Shown piece after piece: positions 4,265 through 23,810 of a stretch of DNA of 32,178 nucleotides. Source of the stretch: a virus; IMG/VR virus record IMGVR_UViG_3300048625_000442, positions 1 through 32,178 of that record; one strand, written 5' to 3'. The notes under the pieces are model-generated. The model ran no database searches. It worked only from the letters and a program-made list of their open reading frames with translations, and was not told the DNA's origin. How positions within the stretch are numbered: position 1 is the stretch's first letter; the number at the start of each line of letters is the position of its first letter. The position numbers and the translations under genes are program-made.

Positions 4265-4624
4265 TCAAAGCCCCCCAGAGACGGGAAGTCTCGTCACAGG
4301 CTGCTGAACGGGGATTTCCAGCATGAAGCCAAGGTGGCGGTCGGGTTCAAGATCGGTGCGAACGACATCAATCACCACACTGCCCGCGACAAGCGTGCTT
4401 GTGATCGTAGGCCCCAAGACAATCTCAAGTGTCCGATCATCTTCTCGGATCAGGGTGCCCGCCTCGGTCGAAAGCGTTGCAAGCAGGACCGCTGATCCGA
4501 TCGACGCGCGCACTTGCGCGATAAGTGTGCACCCAATTGGGAACAGGGCAGAATCCGTGCCTAAGCGCAGTCGGTATTCATAGCCAATCAAGATGATCGG
4601 GCCCTCAGAAACCGTCGTTGTCAT
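4265..4624 (-). CDS. Hypothetical tail/baseplate-associated protein
   Basis: A 119-residue, mainly beta-strand protein of unknown family. The pattern (RLRLGTDSALFPIGCTLIAQVR, then alternating hydrophobic segments up to VIDVVRTDL) resembles small immunoglobulin-like N-terminal modules found in baseplate upper proteins. This is a fold impression only. It overlaps the S74 gene upstream by ATGA and ends 3 bases before the collagen-like gene, so the three genes are a tight translational unit. Confidence 0.72.
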   Translation of the reverse strand: MTTTVSEGPIILIGYEYRLRLGTDSALFPIGCTLIAQVRASIGSAVLLATLSTEAGTLIREDDRTLEIVLGPTITSTLVAGSVVIDVVRTDLEPDRHLGFMLEIPVQQPVTRLPVSGGL

Positions 4625-5277
4625 GCGCGCGCCTCTTCAAGTTGCGCAATCCGGGTATTCAGTTCCTTCACCGCTTCGATCAGAACGCCGGCGATGTTGC
4701 CGTAGGCGATCGACAGCATGCCGTTGTCATCGGCGCGCACAATTTCAGGCAAAACGTCCAATACTTCTTGCGCGACCAGGCCAATATGCTGGCGGCCATT
4801 CATGGTGAACCGGACCCCGCGCAGCGCGCATACAAGGTCAACGGCACCGGCGATGGTCGCAATGTCCGACTTGAGCCGCCGGTCCGAACTCGACGTGAAG
4901 TCTGGTGCCGAAACCAAGCCGGTGAAGGCCGCCCCGCTGAGGTTGGCCTTTGCCGCAATCGTGCCGTCATAGGCGGCCGCAGACTGCGTCGCCATTGTGC
5001 CAAGCCCGAGATTGGACCTGGCCACAGCGTTATTCGCCAGGCCCGACAGGTTCCCGGCGCTGTCGAGCAAAGCATCCCAGCCGGTATTGTTCACGTTACG
5101 GCGGCGCAAAGCAGGCGGCGAGACAGATGTATCCATCCACAACATGCCGGCAACCGTCGGGTTTGGTGCGCTGGCCCCGGCATTTGCCGATTGCAGCGCG
5201 GCAATCACCTCGTTGATCCGCGCGCGCACTGCCGCCCCGGCAGCGTTTGCTATGACAAAATTTGACGTCTGAGCCAT
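4621..5277 (-). CDS. Tail fibre protein with S74 chaperone domain (second copy)
   Basis: A 218-residue protein. An N-terminal helical region (about 1-35, MAQTSNFVIANAAGAAVRAR) precedes a short module with GMLWMDTSVSPPALRRRN, common in phage fibres. A shaft repeat follows (LGLGTMATQSA), then a C-terminal S74 domain from about residue 129. The S-D-R-R-L-K signature gives a probable Ser131/Lys136 dyad. The end (about 190-216) is a coiled coil. It is paralogous to the S74 domain of the gene at 1798-2391 but has a different N-terminus. Its start follows J by a TAATG stop/start overlap, indicating coupling to the tail-tip gene. Confidence 0.88.
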   Translation of the reverse strand: MAQTSNFVIANAAGAAVRARINEVIAALQSANAGASAPNPTVAGMLWMDTSVSPPALRRRNVNNTGWDALLDSAGNLSGLANNAVARSNLGLGTMATQSAAAYDGTIAAKANLSGAAFTGLVSAPDFTSSSDRRLKSDIATIAGAVDLVCALRGVRFTMNGRQHIGLVAQEVLDVLPEIVRADDNGMLSIAYGNIAGVLIEAVKELNTRIAQLEEARA

Positions 5278-8810: not shown

Positions 8811-9391
8811 CAGAGCGCCTCGCGGGCAGAAATCGTGAAGCGGTGCATATCGGCCCCGCTGATCACCGCAGGCACCGGCGCATTGAGGCGCAAGAGGGCT
8901 GCAGGGCGATCGAGACCGATCAGCGTGCCGATTTGCACAGCACCCCGCAAGGCGGGCACGAAATGCAGCACCGCTTCGCTGCCGACGGGGGCAACGTCCT
9001 CGGTAATTTGGTAAAGCCGGGTGGCGGCATCGCTGCCCAGTTGAAAAAATTCACCCGCGCGCAGCCCGAGCCCCCAACCGGCGGTGGCCATGCTGTTGCC
9101 CGAAGTGCTGGTGAGGGTGACGTAAGGGGTGCCCACACCAGGCGGGATCTCGATTGAAGGGTCGCGAAACAGAAAACGCCCGCGCGCCCCACCAAGTGCG
9201 GCAAAGAATGCCGAAAGCTTGCGTGCATTTGCCCCTTGGGTGATGGCCATTTCAAACTGAAACTCCCACCATTCGGCCCCCCAATACTGGACTTGCTGCG
9301 TTCCGGTGAACGGCGATGTCGAAACGGCGGTCGAGGTCATCAAGCGGCGCTCAACGGAGCGCACCAGAGTGACCGGGAGTTCGGCGATCAT
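8810..9391 (-). CDS. Distal tail-like/minor tail protein
   Basis: A 193-residue protein directly after the tape measure. The segment SPFTGTQQVQYWGAEWWEFQFEM plus FRDP recurs in phage distal tail-type and M-like proteins, where an N-terminal beta-sandwich caps the tube. It is mainly beta-strand with no enzyme motif. The ATG overlaps the tape measure stop as ATGA at 9388-9391, so expression is coupled. The role as lambda M/Dit equivalent is inferred from position and strand pattern. Confidence 0.78.
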   Translation of the reverse strand: MIAELPVTLVRSVERRLMTSTAVSTSPFTGTQQVQYWGAEWWEFQFEMAITQGANARKLSAFFAALGGARGRFLFRDPSIEIPPGVGTPYVTLTSTSGNSMATAGWGLGLRAGEFFQLGSDAATRLYQITEDVAPVGSEAVLHFVPALRGAVQIGTLIGLDRPAALLRLNAPVPAVISGADMHRFTISAREAL

Positions 9392-11868
9392 AGGGCATGG
9401 CCTCTGCGCCGCCCGTCGGCGACCGCCTGCTTTGCGATACGCTCGATTTGGGGGATGGCTGCGCGCAACTTCGTATCGATCTGCTCTGCAACGCCCATCT
9501 GTGCGCCGCGCGCATCAATCGAAATGTTGACGCCCGATGCCGCATTATTGCTGCCGCCTTGTGCGACCTCGCGGCGCGACAGCACCCGCTCGCCGCGCTG
9601 CAATATGGCTGGTACCTCGTCAGGCCTAAGCCCTGCCCAGCCGCCGGAATGCATCTTTGGTGCGCCGGCAAAGGCTAGGGCGGAGACCGCGCGGCTCGGG
9701 CCGCCACCGATCCCAACCATTCCGCCCGCGTGTAAGATACTGGCTGTGCTGCCTGGGGCGGGGCCCATGAATAGCGAGAGTGCGCTGGCGATGGGGCCCA
9801 GAACCGCGCGTTTGAACGACAACACCGCAAGATCGGCCAGCATTGATGAGACCAGGGATTTAAAATCAAATTTGCCGGTGGTCACGAATTGCCGGAAGGC
9901 ACTCTCGGCAGAGCTGAAGGCGTCAACCAAGGTGCTGCCCAAGCCCTTGCCCCAGTTCATGGCCTCCTTGCTATACTCCGCCAAGGTTTGCGCAACCGCG
10001 GCCCACCCGGTCTTTGCCTCCTCTGCGGCGGCCTTGGTCTTTGCGCCTGCGCCCTTGGCCGCCGTTCCGGCCGTATTCAAGCCATTTGCCAAATTGGCTG
10101 CCGCATCGCTGGCCTGGGTCAGCGCATCTTCACCCGACGCGCCGGCTCCCGTTATTGCGGCCTTCAGGGCCTCCCAGGCCGTCATCGGGCGCGATGCGGC
10201 ATCCGAGAGCATCCCCGCGGCTTCATCATAGGCACCCGACCGCGATCGCGCATCTGCGGCCATGCCCCCAAAGAGGTTTGGCGCATCCACATAGGTTTTG
10301 CCCATGGCGTCGCTGAAGGCCTTGCCCGCGGCAGCGCCAGCCTCGGTCGCCGCCCCCTGGAACGGATTGGTGATGCCGCCCAGATTGACCTCTTGCAACG
10401 ATCCAATACGAATGCCGCCTTCGCCGGTTGCCCATTCAGGCAAAAGCGCCAGAGCGGCATTCAGGCCCTCAATGAAGCTGTTGATCCGGGTGACGACGGC
10501 ATTCAGCATCGATTCCACCCCATCAATCAGCCCGTTTGCCGCTTGATAGGCAAAATCGCCGATCGCTTGCGGCAAGGCCTTCCAGATAGCCTTCACCGCG
10601 TCATAGGTTCCTTGGAATGTCCCAACCGCGCTGTTGCCCCAATCGACAACAGCAACCGTAGCCCCCTGAAGACCGTCGTAGATCACAGCCTGTGCGGCTG
10701 CCCAGCCCGCCTCCACCCGCGACCAGGCGGCTGAGGCCGCCAAAGAGATACGATTCCAGGCCTCAAAGCCTGCGTCTTTCAAAAGTGCCAAGGCTGCGCC
10801 AAACCCGCCGGCCCCCTCAGCCAGCTTCGAGAACTGATAGGCCAACTCGCCCGCACCCACGATCAGGGCCCCGATGCCTGTCCGGATCAAAGCCGCACGC
10901 AACACCACAAAGGCCGTGGCCAATCCTTTCACAGAAAGTGCCGCCGCGGCCAAACCTGCCACCCAGCGCCCCGCCATGAAGACGGCAAAAGACCCCGCAT
11001 AGGCGGCAAGCCGTTCCAAATTGCCAAGCACCAGTGACAAAGCGCGGTTGATCACGCCGCCAGTAGAGGCAGCCGCCACAAATGCATTCGCCAGCGCCTC
11101 AATCGAAGGCGCCAGGGCGGTGGCAATCTGGTTACGCATACCCTCAAACACCTGCTCAACACCAACCAATGCTGCTTGCGTGCGCCGCATCGCTGCGATG
11201 GCTTTCTGGTCCAAAACCGCCCCCAGCCCTGCAGCGCGATCGCCAAGCGCCTGCATCGCAGCCCCGTTGTTGCGCAATAGCGGCAGCAAAAGCGTGGAAT
11301 CCGAGGCCATCGCCTCCATGTAAAACGTCATGTCCTGCTGGCTGGCGCCCGCTTTTTCCAAGGACCTGACATAGAGCTGCAGCGCCTCAGGGCCAGAAAG
11401 ACGGGCAAACTGATCGGCGGTGACACCCACGCGGGGCGCAATGTTTGCAAAAAAGTCCTTCATCGGCCCGCCGCCGGTCTGGATGAATTCACCCACCCGG
11501 TCATTCACGTCCTTAAGGATATCGGCCAGCTTTTCTTGCTCGATGCCAACGGTTTTGGCCCCCGCCGCCCAGCGCTGCAAGGCTTGCGGCGTGGTGTTTG
11601 CGACTTGCGCAAGAGCGGCGATTTCATTGGCAGATCGCATCGTTGCAGTGGTAATCGCAGCCCCCGCCGCAACCATGGCCGAAGCGATCGCACCCGCGGC
11701 AGGCCCCGCTTTGCGCGTAAAGCCCGATAGCTTCGCATTGGCAAGATCAACCTCGCGCGAAAGCCGACCCAAACCGCGGTTGCCAGCCTCGCCGATCCCC
11801 TCGAGATCGGCCTTGACCTGTTTACCCCCCACGGCCGCGAGGCGCACAAAAACCCGCTTAGTCGTCAT
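9388..11868 (-). CDS. Phage tail tape measure protein
   Basis: An 826-residue tape measure. The N-terminal part is a coiled coil (residues about 10-60). Hydrophobic segments lie near residue 60-80 and in about 290-345 (Ala/Gly/Val-rich with VFMAGRW and IGALIVGAGELAY). Long helical regions follow. The C-terminus has the lambda-family pattern GWAGLRPDEVPAILQRGERV. The gene is the longest after J, and it lies after the chaperones G and GT, as expected. Tape length sets tail length at about 0.15 nm per residue, which would give a tail of roughly 120 nm (inference). The ATG at 11868 was chosen over 11880, because it has a purine-rich site and overlaps the GT stop region by 11 bases. Confidence 0.93.
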   Translation of the reverse strand: MTTKRVFVRLAAVGGKQVKADLEGIGEAGNRGLGRLSREVDLANAKLSGFTRKAGPAAGAIASAMVAAGAAITTATMRSANEIAALAQVANTTPQALQRWAAGAKTVGIEQEKLADILKDVNDRVGEFIQTGGGPMKDFFANIAPRVGVTADQFARLSGPEALQLYVRSLEKAGASQQDMTFYMEAMASDSTLLLPLLRNNGAAMQALGDRAAGLGAVLDQKAIAAMRRTQAALVGVEQVFEGMRNQIATALAPSIEALANAFVAAASTGGVINRALSLVLGNLERLAAYAGSFAVFMAGRWVAGLAAAALSVKGLATAFVVLRAALIRTGIGALIVGAGELAYQFSKLAEGAGGFGAALALLKDAGFEAWNRISLAASAAWSRVEAGWAAAQAVIYDGLQGATVAVVDWGNSAVGTFQGTYDAVKAIWKALPQAIGDFAYQAANGLIDGVESMLNAVVTRINSFIEGLNAALALLPEWATGEGGIRIGSLQEVNLGGITNPFQGAATEAGAAAGKAFSDAMGKTYVDAPNLFGGMAADARSRSGAYDEAAGMLSDAASRPMTAWEALKAAITGAGASGEDALTQASDAAANLANGLNTAGTAAKGAGAKTKAAAEEAKTGWAAVAQTLAEYSKEAMNWGKGLGSTLVDAFSSAESAFRQFVTTGKFDFKSLVSSMLADLAVLSFKRAVLGPIASALSLFMGPAPGSTASILHAGGMVGIGGGPSRAVSALAFAGAPKMHSGGWAGLRPDEVPAILQRGERVLSRREVAQGGSNNAASGVNISIDARGAQMGVAEQIDTKLRAAIPQIERIAKQAVADGRRRGHAL

Positions 11869-12525
11869 ACTGCCCCCCAATCCGTTCGTTGATTTTCCTG
11901 ACCATCACGGCCTCGATTTCTGGCAAGAGCTCTGCGGTAATTAAGGCGTCGATGCCCAAGGCGCGCGCCAACACGAGTGCGGCACCCAGGTCCCAACCAA
12001 TGATGGCCTTACCAGAGACCCGCATCTGCCCGCCCAAGCGGCCGACCAGATCCCAGACCTGCACGCCTTCAAACGTGGCAGGCCAATGGATCCGGGAAGG
12101 ACAGTCCAGACAGCGCCCAACGCAGGCCGCACAGTACGTCTCGCCCCCGCCGAAATGCCATTCGGCGAGAGCGCTTAGACGTTTTTTTCCTGATCCAAAA
12201 CCAAGGCCTTTGCCACGTAAGCCGTCTGGAAGGCCTCAAAAATGGGCCAGACATCGAGCAGCGCGTGCACCCCCTCGGGGCTCACTCCGATCGCTTCGCC
12301 CTGTGCATTCCCCACACCTTCCCAAGCAAGGATTGCGTGCGCCCCCAGTGCTTTTGCAAAGACAAGGGCGCGATCCTCATCGGATGCGTCCTGCGACAGC
12401 GCCACCACATCTGGGTCATTGCGCGTGGCCACCATCAGCGCGGTTGTCAGCGGGCGCAGGTGAAGCCGCACCCCCGGCGCTACATCGAGCCAGCGCGCGC
12501 TCTGGGTAAGATCAAGTTTTAGCAT
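11858..12525 (-). CDS. GT-like tail chaperone by -1 frameshift (join 12525-12181 and 12181-11858)
   Basis: Slippage at the heptamer A AAA AAC (12187-12181) would add 107 residues to the G protein, for 222 residues in total. I read the -1 frame directly: it has no stop from the slip site to the TAA at 11858. The added part starts RLSALAEWHFGGGETYCAAC and contains CxxCxxxCxxC (ETYCAACVGRCLDCP), a possible zinc knuckle. It then runs through WPATFEGVQVWDLVGRLGG and a helical C-terminus ending IGGQYDD. The later part resembles DUF1799-type phage proteins. A 68-residue open frame (12064-11858, GTG start) would be the T part alone, but it is better explained as the end of the fusion. In lambda, GT recruits the tube protein to the tape measure. 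Confidence 0.82.
12148..12167 (-). promoter_or_regulatory. Frameshift-stimulating stem-loop
   Basis: A perfect 7-bp stem (CGCCGAA pairing TTCGGCG) with a 6-base loop lies 13 bases downstream of the slippery heptamer. An outer TCTCG/CGAGA pairing could extend it and shorten the spacer to 10 bases. Stem-loops at about this distance stimulate -1 slippage in known systems. Pairing was checked by eye, and folding energy was not computed. Confidence 0.72.
12175..12525 (-). CDS. Tail assembly chaperone G-like protein
   Basis: A 116-residue protein with the position and size of a tail assembly chaperone: just before the tape measure and just after the tube. It begins MLKLDLTQSARWLDVAPGVRL, a short beta-rich start, then a helical body (LRPLTTALMVATRNDPD, ALGAHAILAWEGVGN). 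Such proteins bind the tape measure before tube assembly. The zero-frame end is LDQEKNV followed by TAA, and its last codons contain the slippery site that gives GT (see separate entries). The ATG at 12525 lies 2 bases after the tube gene stop. A longer in-frame start would overlap the tube gene and lacks a good ribosome site. Confidence 0.83.
   Translation of the reverse strand: MLKLDLTQSARWLDVAPGVRLHLRPLTTALMVATRNDPDVVALSQDASDEDRALVFAKALGAHAILAWEGVGNAQGEAIGVSPEGVHALLDVWPIFEAFQTAYVAKALVLDQEKNV
12181..12187 (-). promoter_or_regulatory. Programmed -1 ribosomal frameshift site (A AAA AAC)
   Basis: In the reading frame of G the codons are GAA AAA AAC GTC TAA, so the last A of GAA begins an exact X XXY YYZ heptamer (A AAA AAC) two codons before the stop. 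Seven A's in a row are present on the minus strand. Both tRNAs can re-pair after a one-base slip, and the -1 frame is open for 107 codons. This matches the G-GT architecture of lambda-like phages. Confidence 0.85.
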
Positions 12526-12527
12526 GC

Positions 12528-13466
12528 TCAATACCCTTCGACATCGTTGATCAGCTCGACCGTGCACATCCGGCCAAGCGTTGCGTCCTTGGCCGCCTGC
12601 CAATCGAAAGTTGCCTGCACGCCCTGCGGCCCTGCGATTTCAATCCGCGGGCGCGGCAGATAGACCGAATGCGCCGTGATCGTCAGGCTTTGCCCCGAGC
12701 CCAAGACATAAGAGAACTCCAGCGCGCAAGCCGCCCCGTTGATCGCCTGGCTCATCAGCGTAGTGTCGGCAAAGCGTACCTCGATATTGCCGGTCAATGC
12801 CGCCATGCCAGGATCAACACCGTCGATCTTGCCATCGCTGCGGATCGTCTCGACCCGATCAAGCGTGTTGGAATAGCTGATCTGGCTTGAGACGATATTT
12901 GCCAGCGCCGTGCCATCGCGCCTGATCGCACCGTTGAAATGACCAAAGCGCAGCAACTCCATCACGCTTGGCGTGCCTGCGGCGGTGGACCTGGCCGGTG
13001 CCTCGCCTTGGGCAATCATGCTGATCGTGGCGGTCAAGAGCCCCGAGCGCTGCATGGTAAAGGCAAACTTATCAACCACGCAGCCCGTATACATCGCAAA
13101 GCGCGGCAATTCCGGCAGGCCCACCTCAATGGCAAGGCTGGGCAAGGACCAACCGCCCGAGCGATACTCATGGGTATATGGGCCGGCGCCCGTCGTGACA
13201 GGCGCGCCAAAAGCCCCCTTCAGCCAATAGCCAATCGCCTGGGCATCAATCGGAACCACAACATCGCCGTCTGCCGTCAGCGCGTCCTTGATCGGCGCCA
13301 GTGGATCGCGGCCGTAGCCCAGCAGTTCCGAGTTTAAAAGCGGCTGCTCTGCCCCCAGGGATGAGGTCGCAAAGGGCATCTTTTTATATCCCGTCGCAGG
13401 CGCGATCCCATAGTCTGTCTCAAACGCAAGCGCCATCTGCGCCCGCGCGCCTTGTGCGCGTGCCAT
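12528..13466 (-). CDS. Phage major tail (tube) protein
   Basis: A 312-residue tail tube protein. The start MARAQGARAQMALAFETDYG and the Gly/Ser-rich, beta-strand body with TISMIAQGEAP are typical of the phage tail tube protein family. The early part carries a flexible loop (about 25-60), as tube proteins do. It precedes the chaperone frameshift pair and follows the tail terminator, the standard siphovirus order. It is longer than lambda V (246), so an extra surface domain is possible. It polymerises as hexameric rings around the tape measure. Confidence 0.88.
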   Translation of the reverse strand: MARAQGARAQMALAFETDYGIAPATGYKKMPFATSSLGAEQPLLNSELLGYGRDPLAPIKDALTADGDVVVPIDAQAIGYWLKGAFGAPVTTGAGPYTHEYRSGGWSLPSLAIEVGLPELPRFAMYTGCVVDKFAFTMQRSGLLTATISMIAQGEAPARSTAAGTPSVMELLRFGHFNGAIRRDGTALANIVSSQISYSNTLDRVETIRSDGKIDGVDPGMAALTGNIEVRFADTTLMSQAINGAACALEFSYVLGSGQSLTITAHSVYLPRPRIEIAGPQGVQATFDWQAAKDATLGRMCTVELINDVEGY

Positions 13467-21747: not shown

Positions 21748-22440
21748 TCAAAGCCCCCAATTCTCAATCTCCGATAGATCGAAGGTTTCGTCTTCAGCCA
21801 GGCGGCCACCCGGCGCGCGCTTGGTGTCGTCCTCGTGCGGGTCTGCCAGATAGCGGTCAAAGACCGCCTTGATGATTTCGCGGTTGTCCTGGCTGCGCCC
21901 CGATTGATCCCAGAGTGCGTCAAACCAGCCGCGGTAGAATGCCGCCATCTCGTCGCAAACATCGAGATCGAACTGCTCGGTTCGCAGGTTCTTGTTTAGG
22001 TTCATTGATGAGCGCCAGACAGCAGACCCGCGCGCGCCGATCACGATGGTGACCTTTGCGTGGACAGACAGGCAGCGAAACGCGTCCACCCCGAGTTTTT
22101 CGATCAGGGGCCCTGCGTATTTCGGCGATTTTTCAAAGGTGCCGCGATCCAGCAGAAACCGAATGTCCTTGATCCGACCCTCGAGCTGAATCTGGCGGGT
22201 CCGCTCAACATCATAAATACCCGTGGTCCAAGTCGAGACCATGACGTCGGCAGGCCCCAACTCCGCCACCATATGCTCCAACGCATCGATCGCCGAAAAC
22301 TGCCCCGCGGTGAGACCCGTCACCCGCACTCCTGGCGAGAGCGGTCCGATCACGGCGGCCGCCGTGCCGGTGCGGTGGGCGACAAATCGTGTGCGATGTG
22401 ACGAATACCGCAGAGCCCGCGGCCGGCCCCCTTTGCCCAT
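21748..22440 (-). CDS. Phospholipase D-like domain protein
   Basis: A 230-residue protein with one PLD-like active-site motif: SVHAKV (His127, Lys129), then the SSMNLNKNLRTEQF segment (about 144-157). The Asp usual in HKD motifs (four residues after the Lys) is absent; Ile is present instead. A single motif suggests dimerisation. Members cut DNA or phosphodiesters, or are only DNA-binding. The C-terminal 50 residues are acidic. The ATG at 22440 overlaps the methyltransferase stop (TGATG), so the two genes are co-translated, which fits a DNA processing or defence-related function. Its substrate is unknown. Confidence 0.82.
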   Translation of the reverse strand: MGKGGRPRALRYSSHRTRFVAHRTGTAAAVIGPLSPGVRVTGLTAGQFSAIDALEHMVAELGPADVMVSTWTTGIYDVERTRQIQLEGRIKDIRFLLDRGTFEKSPKYAGPLIEKLGVDAFRCLSVHAKVTIVIGARGSAVWRSSMNLNKNLRTEQFDLDVCDEMAAFYRGWFDALWDQSGRSQDNREIIKAVFDRYLADPHEDDTKRAPGGRLAEDETFDLSEIENWGL

Positions 22441-23810
22441 CACGCGGCCCTCCCTTTGGCGCCAACCGCCTCGAAGTCCCGCCCGTCGCCTTCAAGGATG
22501 GCGTGGCGGCCGGTGAACTCTTGCCAGCGGCGGATGATGACGTCGCAGAACTTCTCATCAAGCTCCATAAGGCGCGCCCGGCGCCCTAACTTTTCGCAGG
22601 CAATCAGCGTCGAGCCCGAGCCGCCAAAAAGATCGAGCACCACTGAGCCTGTCTGGGTGCTGTTTTCCAACATGCCGCAAATCAGCTCGACCGGCTTCAT
22701 TGTGGGGTGTTCGCCGTTTTTGGCCGGCTTGCTGTGCCGGATAATGCTGGAATCCACCGAACGCATCGACATTTTCTCGCCCTCGATGATCACGACCTGG
22801 CCGCCCAGATCAATCTGAATGCTGCCGTCGGGCATGATGCGCAGGCTTTCGCCCTTGTGCTCGATCACGGTGGTATTTGCGCGCCCGCCAAACCAGGCAT
22901 GCGACGCGCCGAGCTTCCAGCCGTAGAGGATGGGTTCGTGGCGCCATTGGTAATCAGACCGGCCGAGCACCAAGGAGGGTTTCACCCACACGAGGCAGCC
23001 CGAGAGTTTGAAACCAGCATCAGCAAAGGCCCGCCGAAAATTCAGCCCTTCCGTGTCGGCATGCGCGACATAGATCGGTGCACCTGCGCGCATATTGCTG
23101 GCTGCAGCCGAGAATGCGTCAATCAAGAAGCGCCGAAATGCGCCGGCTTCCATGTTGTCGTTTTGGATTTTACCCGCCGAGCCTTCATAGTTCACGTTAT
23201 AGGGCGGGTCGGTCCAACAGGCATCAACCAGAGCGCCCTGGCAGAGCAATGACACCGCGCCCATATCCGTGCTGTCGCCGCACATCAGCCGGTGATCGCC
23301 AAGGATCCAGATATCTCCAGTCTGGGTGACATAGCGCGCCACAATCTCAGGGACGTGATCCGGATCGCCCGGTGCGGGTGACGCCACATCATCGTCGGGC
23401 GCAAAGTCCATCAGATCGCCCAGCTCTTCGTCAGAAAACCCCAGCAGGTCGAGGTCGAAATGCTCGGCATGCAATTCGCCGACCAGCTCGCGCAGCAGGT
23501 CCACATCCCACTGCGCGTTCTCGGCGATCTTGTTGTCAGCCACCACCAGCGCCCGGCGCTGTTCGGAATTCAGATGTCCGAGCCGGATCACCGGTACGGT
23601 CTCAAGCCCGATCAGGCGCGCGGCTTCAAAGCGGCCGTGGCCCGCGATGATGATACCATCGGCCCCGAGCAGGATCGGGTTCACAAAACCAAACTCTTCG
23701 ATGGAGGCCGCGATCTGGGTGATTTGCCAGGCCGGGTGTGTGCGCGGATTGCGATCGAAAGGAACGATCTGATCCAGGGGCAGGAACTCGATCTGCAAGC
23801 GCAACTCCAA
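22440..23810 (-). CDS. ParB-like N-terminal domain fused to site-specific DNA methyltransferase
   Basis: A 456-residue fusion. Residues about 8-135 are a ParB/Srx-like domain (IPLDQ-type start, IIAGHGRFEAARLIG at about 54-68). From about 165 there is an amino-methyltransferase: DPPY at 201-204 (motif IV) and FGGSGS at 395-400 (motif I). This order is of the beta class, for N6-adenine or N4-cytosine. The specificity region lies between the motifs (about 220-390). Phage copies of this fusion usually modify phage DNA against host restriction. There is no ATG start: TTG at 23810 is one choice, but TTG at 23798 has GGAG six bases upstream and may be the real start. A terminator-like hairpin lies just upstream. 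Confidence 0.9.
   Translation of the reverse strand: MELRLQIEFLPLDQIVPFDRNPRTHPAWQITQIAASIEEFGFVNPILLGADGIIIAGHGRFEAARLIGLETVPVIRLGHLNSEQRRALVVADNKIAENAQWDVDLLRELVGELHAEHFDLDLLGFSDEELGDLMDFAPDDDVASPAPGDPDHVPEIVARYVTQTGDIWILGDHRLMCGDSTDMGAVSLLCQGALVDACWTDPPYNVNYEGSAGKIQNDNMEAGAFRRFLIDAFSAAASNMRAGAPIYVAHADTEGLNFRRAFADAGFKLSGCLVWVKPSLVLGRSDYQWRHEPILYGWKLGASHAWFGGRANTTVIEHKGESLRIMPDGSIQIDLGGQVVIIEGEKMSMRSVDSSIIRHSKPAKNGEHPTMKPVELICGMLENSTQTGSVVLDLFGGSGSTLIACEKLGRRARLMELDEKFCDVIIRRWQEFTGRHAILEGDGRDFEAVGAKGRAA

Follow-up and report, generated by a model that had tools for sequence, protein, structure and literature searches.

A predicted frameshifted G/GT tail chaperone pair whose T domain carries a conserved four-cysteine knuckle

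The DNA analyzed here (the window, 32,178 nucleotides of viral sequence) very probably encodes a G/GT tail chaperone pair, in which ribosomes slipping into the -1 frame near the end of G would append the T domain. G/GT -1 frameshifting is textbook knowledge, and the mechanism proposed here is ordinary. The new part is a conserved cysteine insert at the head of T, which is missing from the protein family models that cover this domain.

Gene order and the slip site

G (12525-12175, minus strand) begins with an ATG at 12525, ends with a TAA at 12177-12175 and encodes a tail assembly chaperone of 116 aa that matches phrog_313 ("Tail assembly chaperone," 1.2e-13). Upstream of G lies the gene for the major tail tube protein (12528-13466, minus strand; Phage_tube_2, 1.3e-60), and the tape measure gene (9388-11868, minus strand; phrog_8462, 1.7e-100; Tape_meas_lam_C, 1.9e-17) has its start within the 3' end of T. 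The order on the minus strand is thus tail tube, G, T, and tape measure, which is the position of a lambda-type G/GT pair, and the other marks of such a pair are present as well: G is a tail assembly chaperone, a conserved -1 slip site lies near its 3' end, and T is without a start of its own. In phage lambda the gene order is the same, ribosomes likewise slip by -1 where G ends, and T is made only as a fusion, although the lambda heptamer differs. A lambda-type GT is expected to be a low-level product, absent from virions, that binds both the tape measure and the tail tube proteins. In lambda, G binds the tape measure and T binds the tail tube protein (PMC5009743).

The 0-frame end of G reads CAG GAA AAA AAC GTC TAA and contains the slippery heptamer A_AAA_AAC (12187-12181, minus strand), with the G stop codon two codons past the slip. 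The T extension in the -1 frame (12181-11858, minus strand) runs from CGT (12181) to a TAA at 11860-11858, spans 107 codons plus the stop, and is conserved in relatives from end to end. The predicted GT protein would have 222 residues (115 + 107). The sequence-only reading had placed an exact A AAA AAC heptamer at the end of G, followed by 107 open codons in the -1 frame as far as 11858, and the sequence bears out these coordinates and counts.

Elsewhere in the window, all on the minus strand, a Peptidase_S74 (endosialidase chaperone) domain is present in each of two separate tail genes (1798-2391 and 4621-5277), and a fusion gene (22440-23810) combines a ParB N-terminal domain with an N6/N4 DNA methylase. 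Near the tail fiber genes, 159-899 has a weak 2OG-Fe(II) oxygenase match slightly below the Pfam cut-off.

Conservation of the heptamer and its hairpin

A search with only the T frame found 239 viral stretches encoding a relative, and the addition of genome and further viral scans gave 212 distinct related regions. Exact A codons were not pre-selected in these searches, because the search patterns were peptides. The heptamer is A_AAA_AAC at 208 of the 212 loci, G_GGA_AAC in two (the Rhodobacter phages RcKemmy and RcKai), and A_AAA_AAA in one (a Synechococcus phage); the remaining locus has undetermined bases (Ns) beside the site. The sequence-only reading had held that its slip features were unlikely to co-occur by chance and had proposed conservation of the heptamer in relatives as a check; this expectation is upheld, since 208 loci keep the heptamer and three of the four exceptions carry a slippery substitute. 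The locus with Ns (L114) comes from a record titled as an Exiguobacterium profundum MAG, yet its prophage genes are of the Rhodobacterales type, as are those of two Burkholderiaceae MAGs (L098 and L161); these three records are probably mislabelled or contaminated bins.

Among alphaproteobacterial relatives at greater distance (E 1e-36 to 4e-4; the partial match L269 was left out of the heptamer tally), A_AAA_AAC is present in eight (L258-L261, L264, L265, L268, and L270), G_GGA_AAC in three (L262, L263, and L266), and A_AAA_AAG in two (L271 and L272), with one site not readable. On comparative grounds, the exchange of one slippery heptamer for another at the same codon is a signature of selection for slipping.

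Folding reveals a 13-bp hairpin with a 6-nt loop (12142-12173, minus strand), in which the arms CGCTCTCGCCGAA and TTCGGCGGGGGCG pair 12173-12161 with 12154-12142. The hairpin starts 7 nt past the heptamer, which is within the range of 5-8 nt reported for stimulatory structures (PMC4066793). The 7-bp stem CGCCGAA/TTCGGCG described earlier at 13 nt downstream is indeed present and forms the top of this longer stem. Folding of 70 nt of the window gave a minimum free energy of -33.1 kcal/mol (z -3.59 against dinucleotide shuffles). Compared with synonymous recodings, which preserve the -1 protein and take their codon usage from the flanking genes, the hairpin has a mean z of -2.82 over 168 contexts (85% below -2), vs. 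+0.16 for a control stretch within T. A leucine encoded in the stem, at T codon 6, is CTC or CTT in 168 of the 168 contexts that encode Leu there, whereas the flanking genes use CTC/CTT for 34% and CTG for 54% of their leucines. In RcKemmy, the stem has AAG for GGG facing CTT, and pairing is preserved.

Pair-by-pair covariation in the close set found one double change, and 205 of 500 shuffles scored as high. Covariation is weak in this set because the bases hardly vary, and the synonymous-recoding and distant-relative tests were therefore used. Distant relatives have stems that differ in sequence but lie at the same distance from the heptamer, with z between -1.9 and -5.0 in 10 of 14. The hairpins of L266 and L268 are weak, and folding found none in L271 and L272, which are AT-rich and carry A_AAA_AAG, a heptamer reported to be more shift-prone in E. 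coli. There may thus be a trade-off between heptamer and stimulator. A covariance model of the slip site recovers distant relatives at the expected position (E 1e-8 to 0.02) and, weakly, two DUF1799 loci, and a search of the site against Rfam returned no match.

The T domain and its cysteines

The C-terminal half of T (11873-12010, minus strand) corresponds to Pfam DUF7697 (PF24752), with 83.4 bits against a cut-off of 27, and to phrog_11212 (6.4e-24); all 39 relatives match DUF7697 (39/39). Both models describe the same protein as this half of T and are without the T head, including the cysteines. Because only the C-terminal half is modeled, automated annotation has lost the T head. The sequence-only reading had expected annotation pipelines to list two unlinked genes or to miss the 5' part of T. 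This is borne out by the two family models and by two cyanophage records that begin T past the slip and most of the head, but not by the GenBank records of Rhodobacter capsulatus phages, which join both frames as "tail assembly chaperone." A paper on R. capsulatus phages regards such frameshifts as usual (PMC8601537). In the R. capsulatus RcC-cluster phages (RcKemmy, RcKai, and others), the T homologue is 54% identical and has the four-cysteine knuckle, while the slip site is G_GGA_AAC rather than A_AAA_AAC and the 0-frame tail of G is longer.

Membership of T in DUF1799 (PF08809), which had been suggested earlier, is not supported: T reaches 13 bits, below the cut-off of 26, and nine of the 39 relatives match, with a best E of 0.014. 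Alphaproteobacterial DUF1799 proteins do lie behind A_AAA_AAC at the matching place and begin with KKL..A, as does T here, and their core pattern Q-x-R ... G-x-D aligns with T (hhalign E 5e-4, probability 30%). Profile comparison thus hints weakly at a kinship between T and DUF1799. In two DUF1799 loci (L280 and L284), the linker before the core contains tandem repeats with cysteines (ENCLQ and QNTC).

The knuckle, CAACVGRCLDC (12133-12101, minus strand), was located at the head of T from sequence and alignment. Its cysteines (C19, C22, C26, and C29 of the extension) form two CxxC pairs, CxxCx3CxxC, and are invariant in the 39-member diverse alignment A2. The four cysteines are retained at longer spacing in most distant relatives, are shifted in a divergent homologue (L086), and are absent from the T of L271 and L272. 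The sequence-only reading had described the knuckle as foreign to lambda T, and it was right: no cysteine cluster occurs in lambda T or in the -1 part of HK97, both of which appear unrelated to this T in sequence. Unlike T here, the DUF1799-type T proteins of Alphaproteobacteria that were examined have no CxxCx3CxxC. Within a wider T family, the knuckle resembles an inserted element or a head peculiar to one lineage.

The 0 frame of most relatives extends to codon 32 of T, overlapping the cysteine region, and it reaches codon 38, 44, or 50 in those with repeat insertions. The long-tailed G ends at a TGA drawn from xTG-Axx, at which T reads Leu, Val, or Met followed by Asn or Ser. This Asn/Ser is kept in all readable long-tailed sequences (198 N, 4 S), and His stands at the same position in five of the eight sequences with an early stop, including the window. 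These data suggest that the Asn is retained largely to provide the G stop codon. At six loci (L013, L014, L016, L029, L032, and L059), 18-bp in-frame repeats in the T head encode EALEAC or EALEACK, widening the gap between the cysteine pairs and adding one Cys per unit while both overlapping frames stay open; the repeats of L280 and L284 are similarly placed.

A structure model of T has a mean pLDDT of 65.5, and of about 60 over the cysteines, and therefore says little on zinc. A Foldseek search of the PDB with this model was without a match, and a sequence search of the PDB gave chance matches only. Against a viral library, Foldseek returned weak matches, several of which bear the name "Tape measure chaperone" (highest probability 0.99, E 0.06). 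No mention of a zinc or cysteine motif was found in the literature searched, including the Rhodobacter phage and RcGTA papers.

Alternative explanations, proposed mechanism, and meaning

The run of seven A residues in the window and most relatives would also suit transcriptional slippage, which we consider very improbable: in the best 80 of the 239 viral relatives the run is always A7 with a C after it, and the hairpin is conserved at the distance expected of ribosomal stimulators (5-8 nt; PMC4066793). Moreover, five loci carry G_GGA_AAC, which contains no long homopolymer, so the common mechanism is ribosomal rather than transcriptional slippage. That T is instead an independent gene starting downstream of the slip (e.g., at the GTG at 12064), with the four-cysteine stretch untranslated, appears extremely unlikely, even though DUF7697 and phrog_11212 begin near this GTG and the two cyanophage records start T internally. 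In relatives as little as 33% identical, the T protein is still conserved as far as the slip site, with the cysteines invariant, and in 168 of 168 contexts the -1 frame contains no ATG, GTG, or TTG between the slip and the first Cys; the T head can therefore be made only by frameshifting. The G/GT frameshift, proposed at first from the letters of the window, is now backed by gene order, the phrog_313 match, slip-site conservation, the missing T start, and relatives annotated as a joined coding sequence.

As to the knuckle, zinc is its probable ligand. An iron-sulfur cluster or disulfides could also be held by the four cysteines, given that the cysteine pattern is all that is known of the site and that the pairs, three residues apart, lie close together by the standard of a classic zinc ribbon. 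This reading is rather unlikely, as the cysteine spacing varies widely in distant relatives, which is commoner for structural zinc sites, and as tail chaperones are transient proteins that work in the reducing cytoplasm. A more speculative and improbable idea is that the knuckle provides metal-dependent control, either by allowing GT to start tube assembly only when zinc-bound, or by binding the hairpin of its own mRNA and tuning the G:GT ratio.

Read from sequence, the G/GT mechanism, including the occurrence and level of slippage and the role of T, would run as follows. Most ribosomes would terminate at the end of G and release the 116-residue chaperone. A minority would be paused by the hairpin 7 nt downstream, the Lys and Asn tRNAs would re-pair from AAA AAC to AAA AAA, and the slipped ribosomes would proceed in the -1 frame to yield the 222-residue GT. 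Many copies of G would then coat the tape measure protein, as in lambda, and the rarer GT would recruit tail tube subunits via T. The most likely ligand of the four-cysteine head is a single structural zinc ion, and the knuckle may shape the contact of the G part with the T helices or with the tail tube protein.

The previously unexplained DUF7697/phrog_11212 family is now tied to a full protein, the T of a frameshifted tail chaperone that is common in Rhodobacterales prophages. The many natural loci whose heptamers and hairpins vary in concert form a large series that would be useful for training frameshift predictors. The finding also highlights a conserved and previously unremarked insert, resembling a metal site, in a domain whose presumed role is the recruitment of tail tube subunits.
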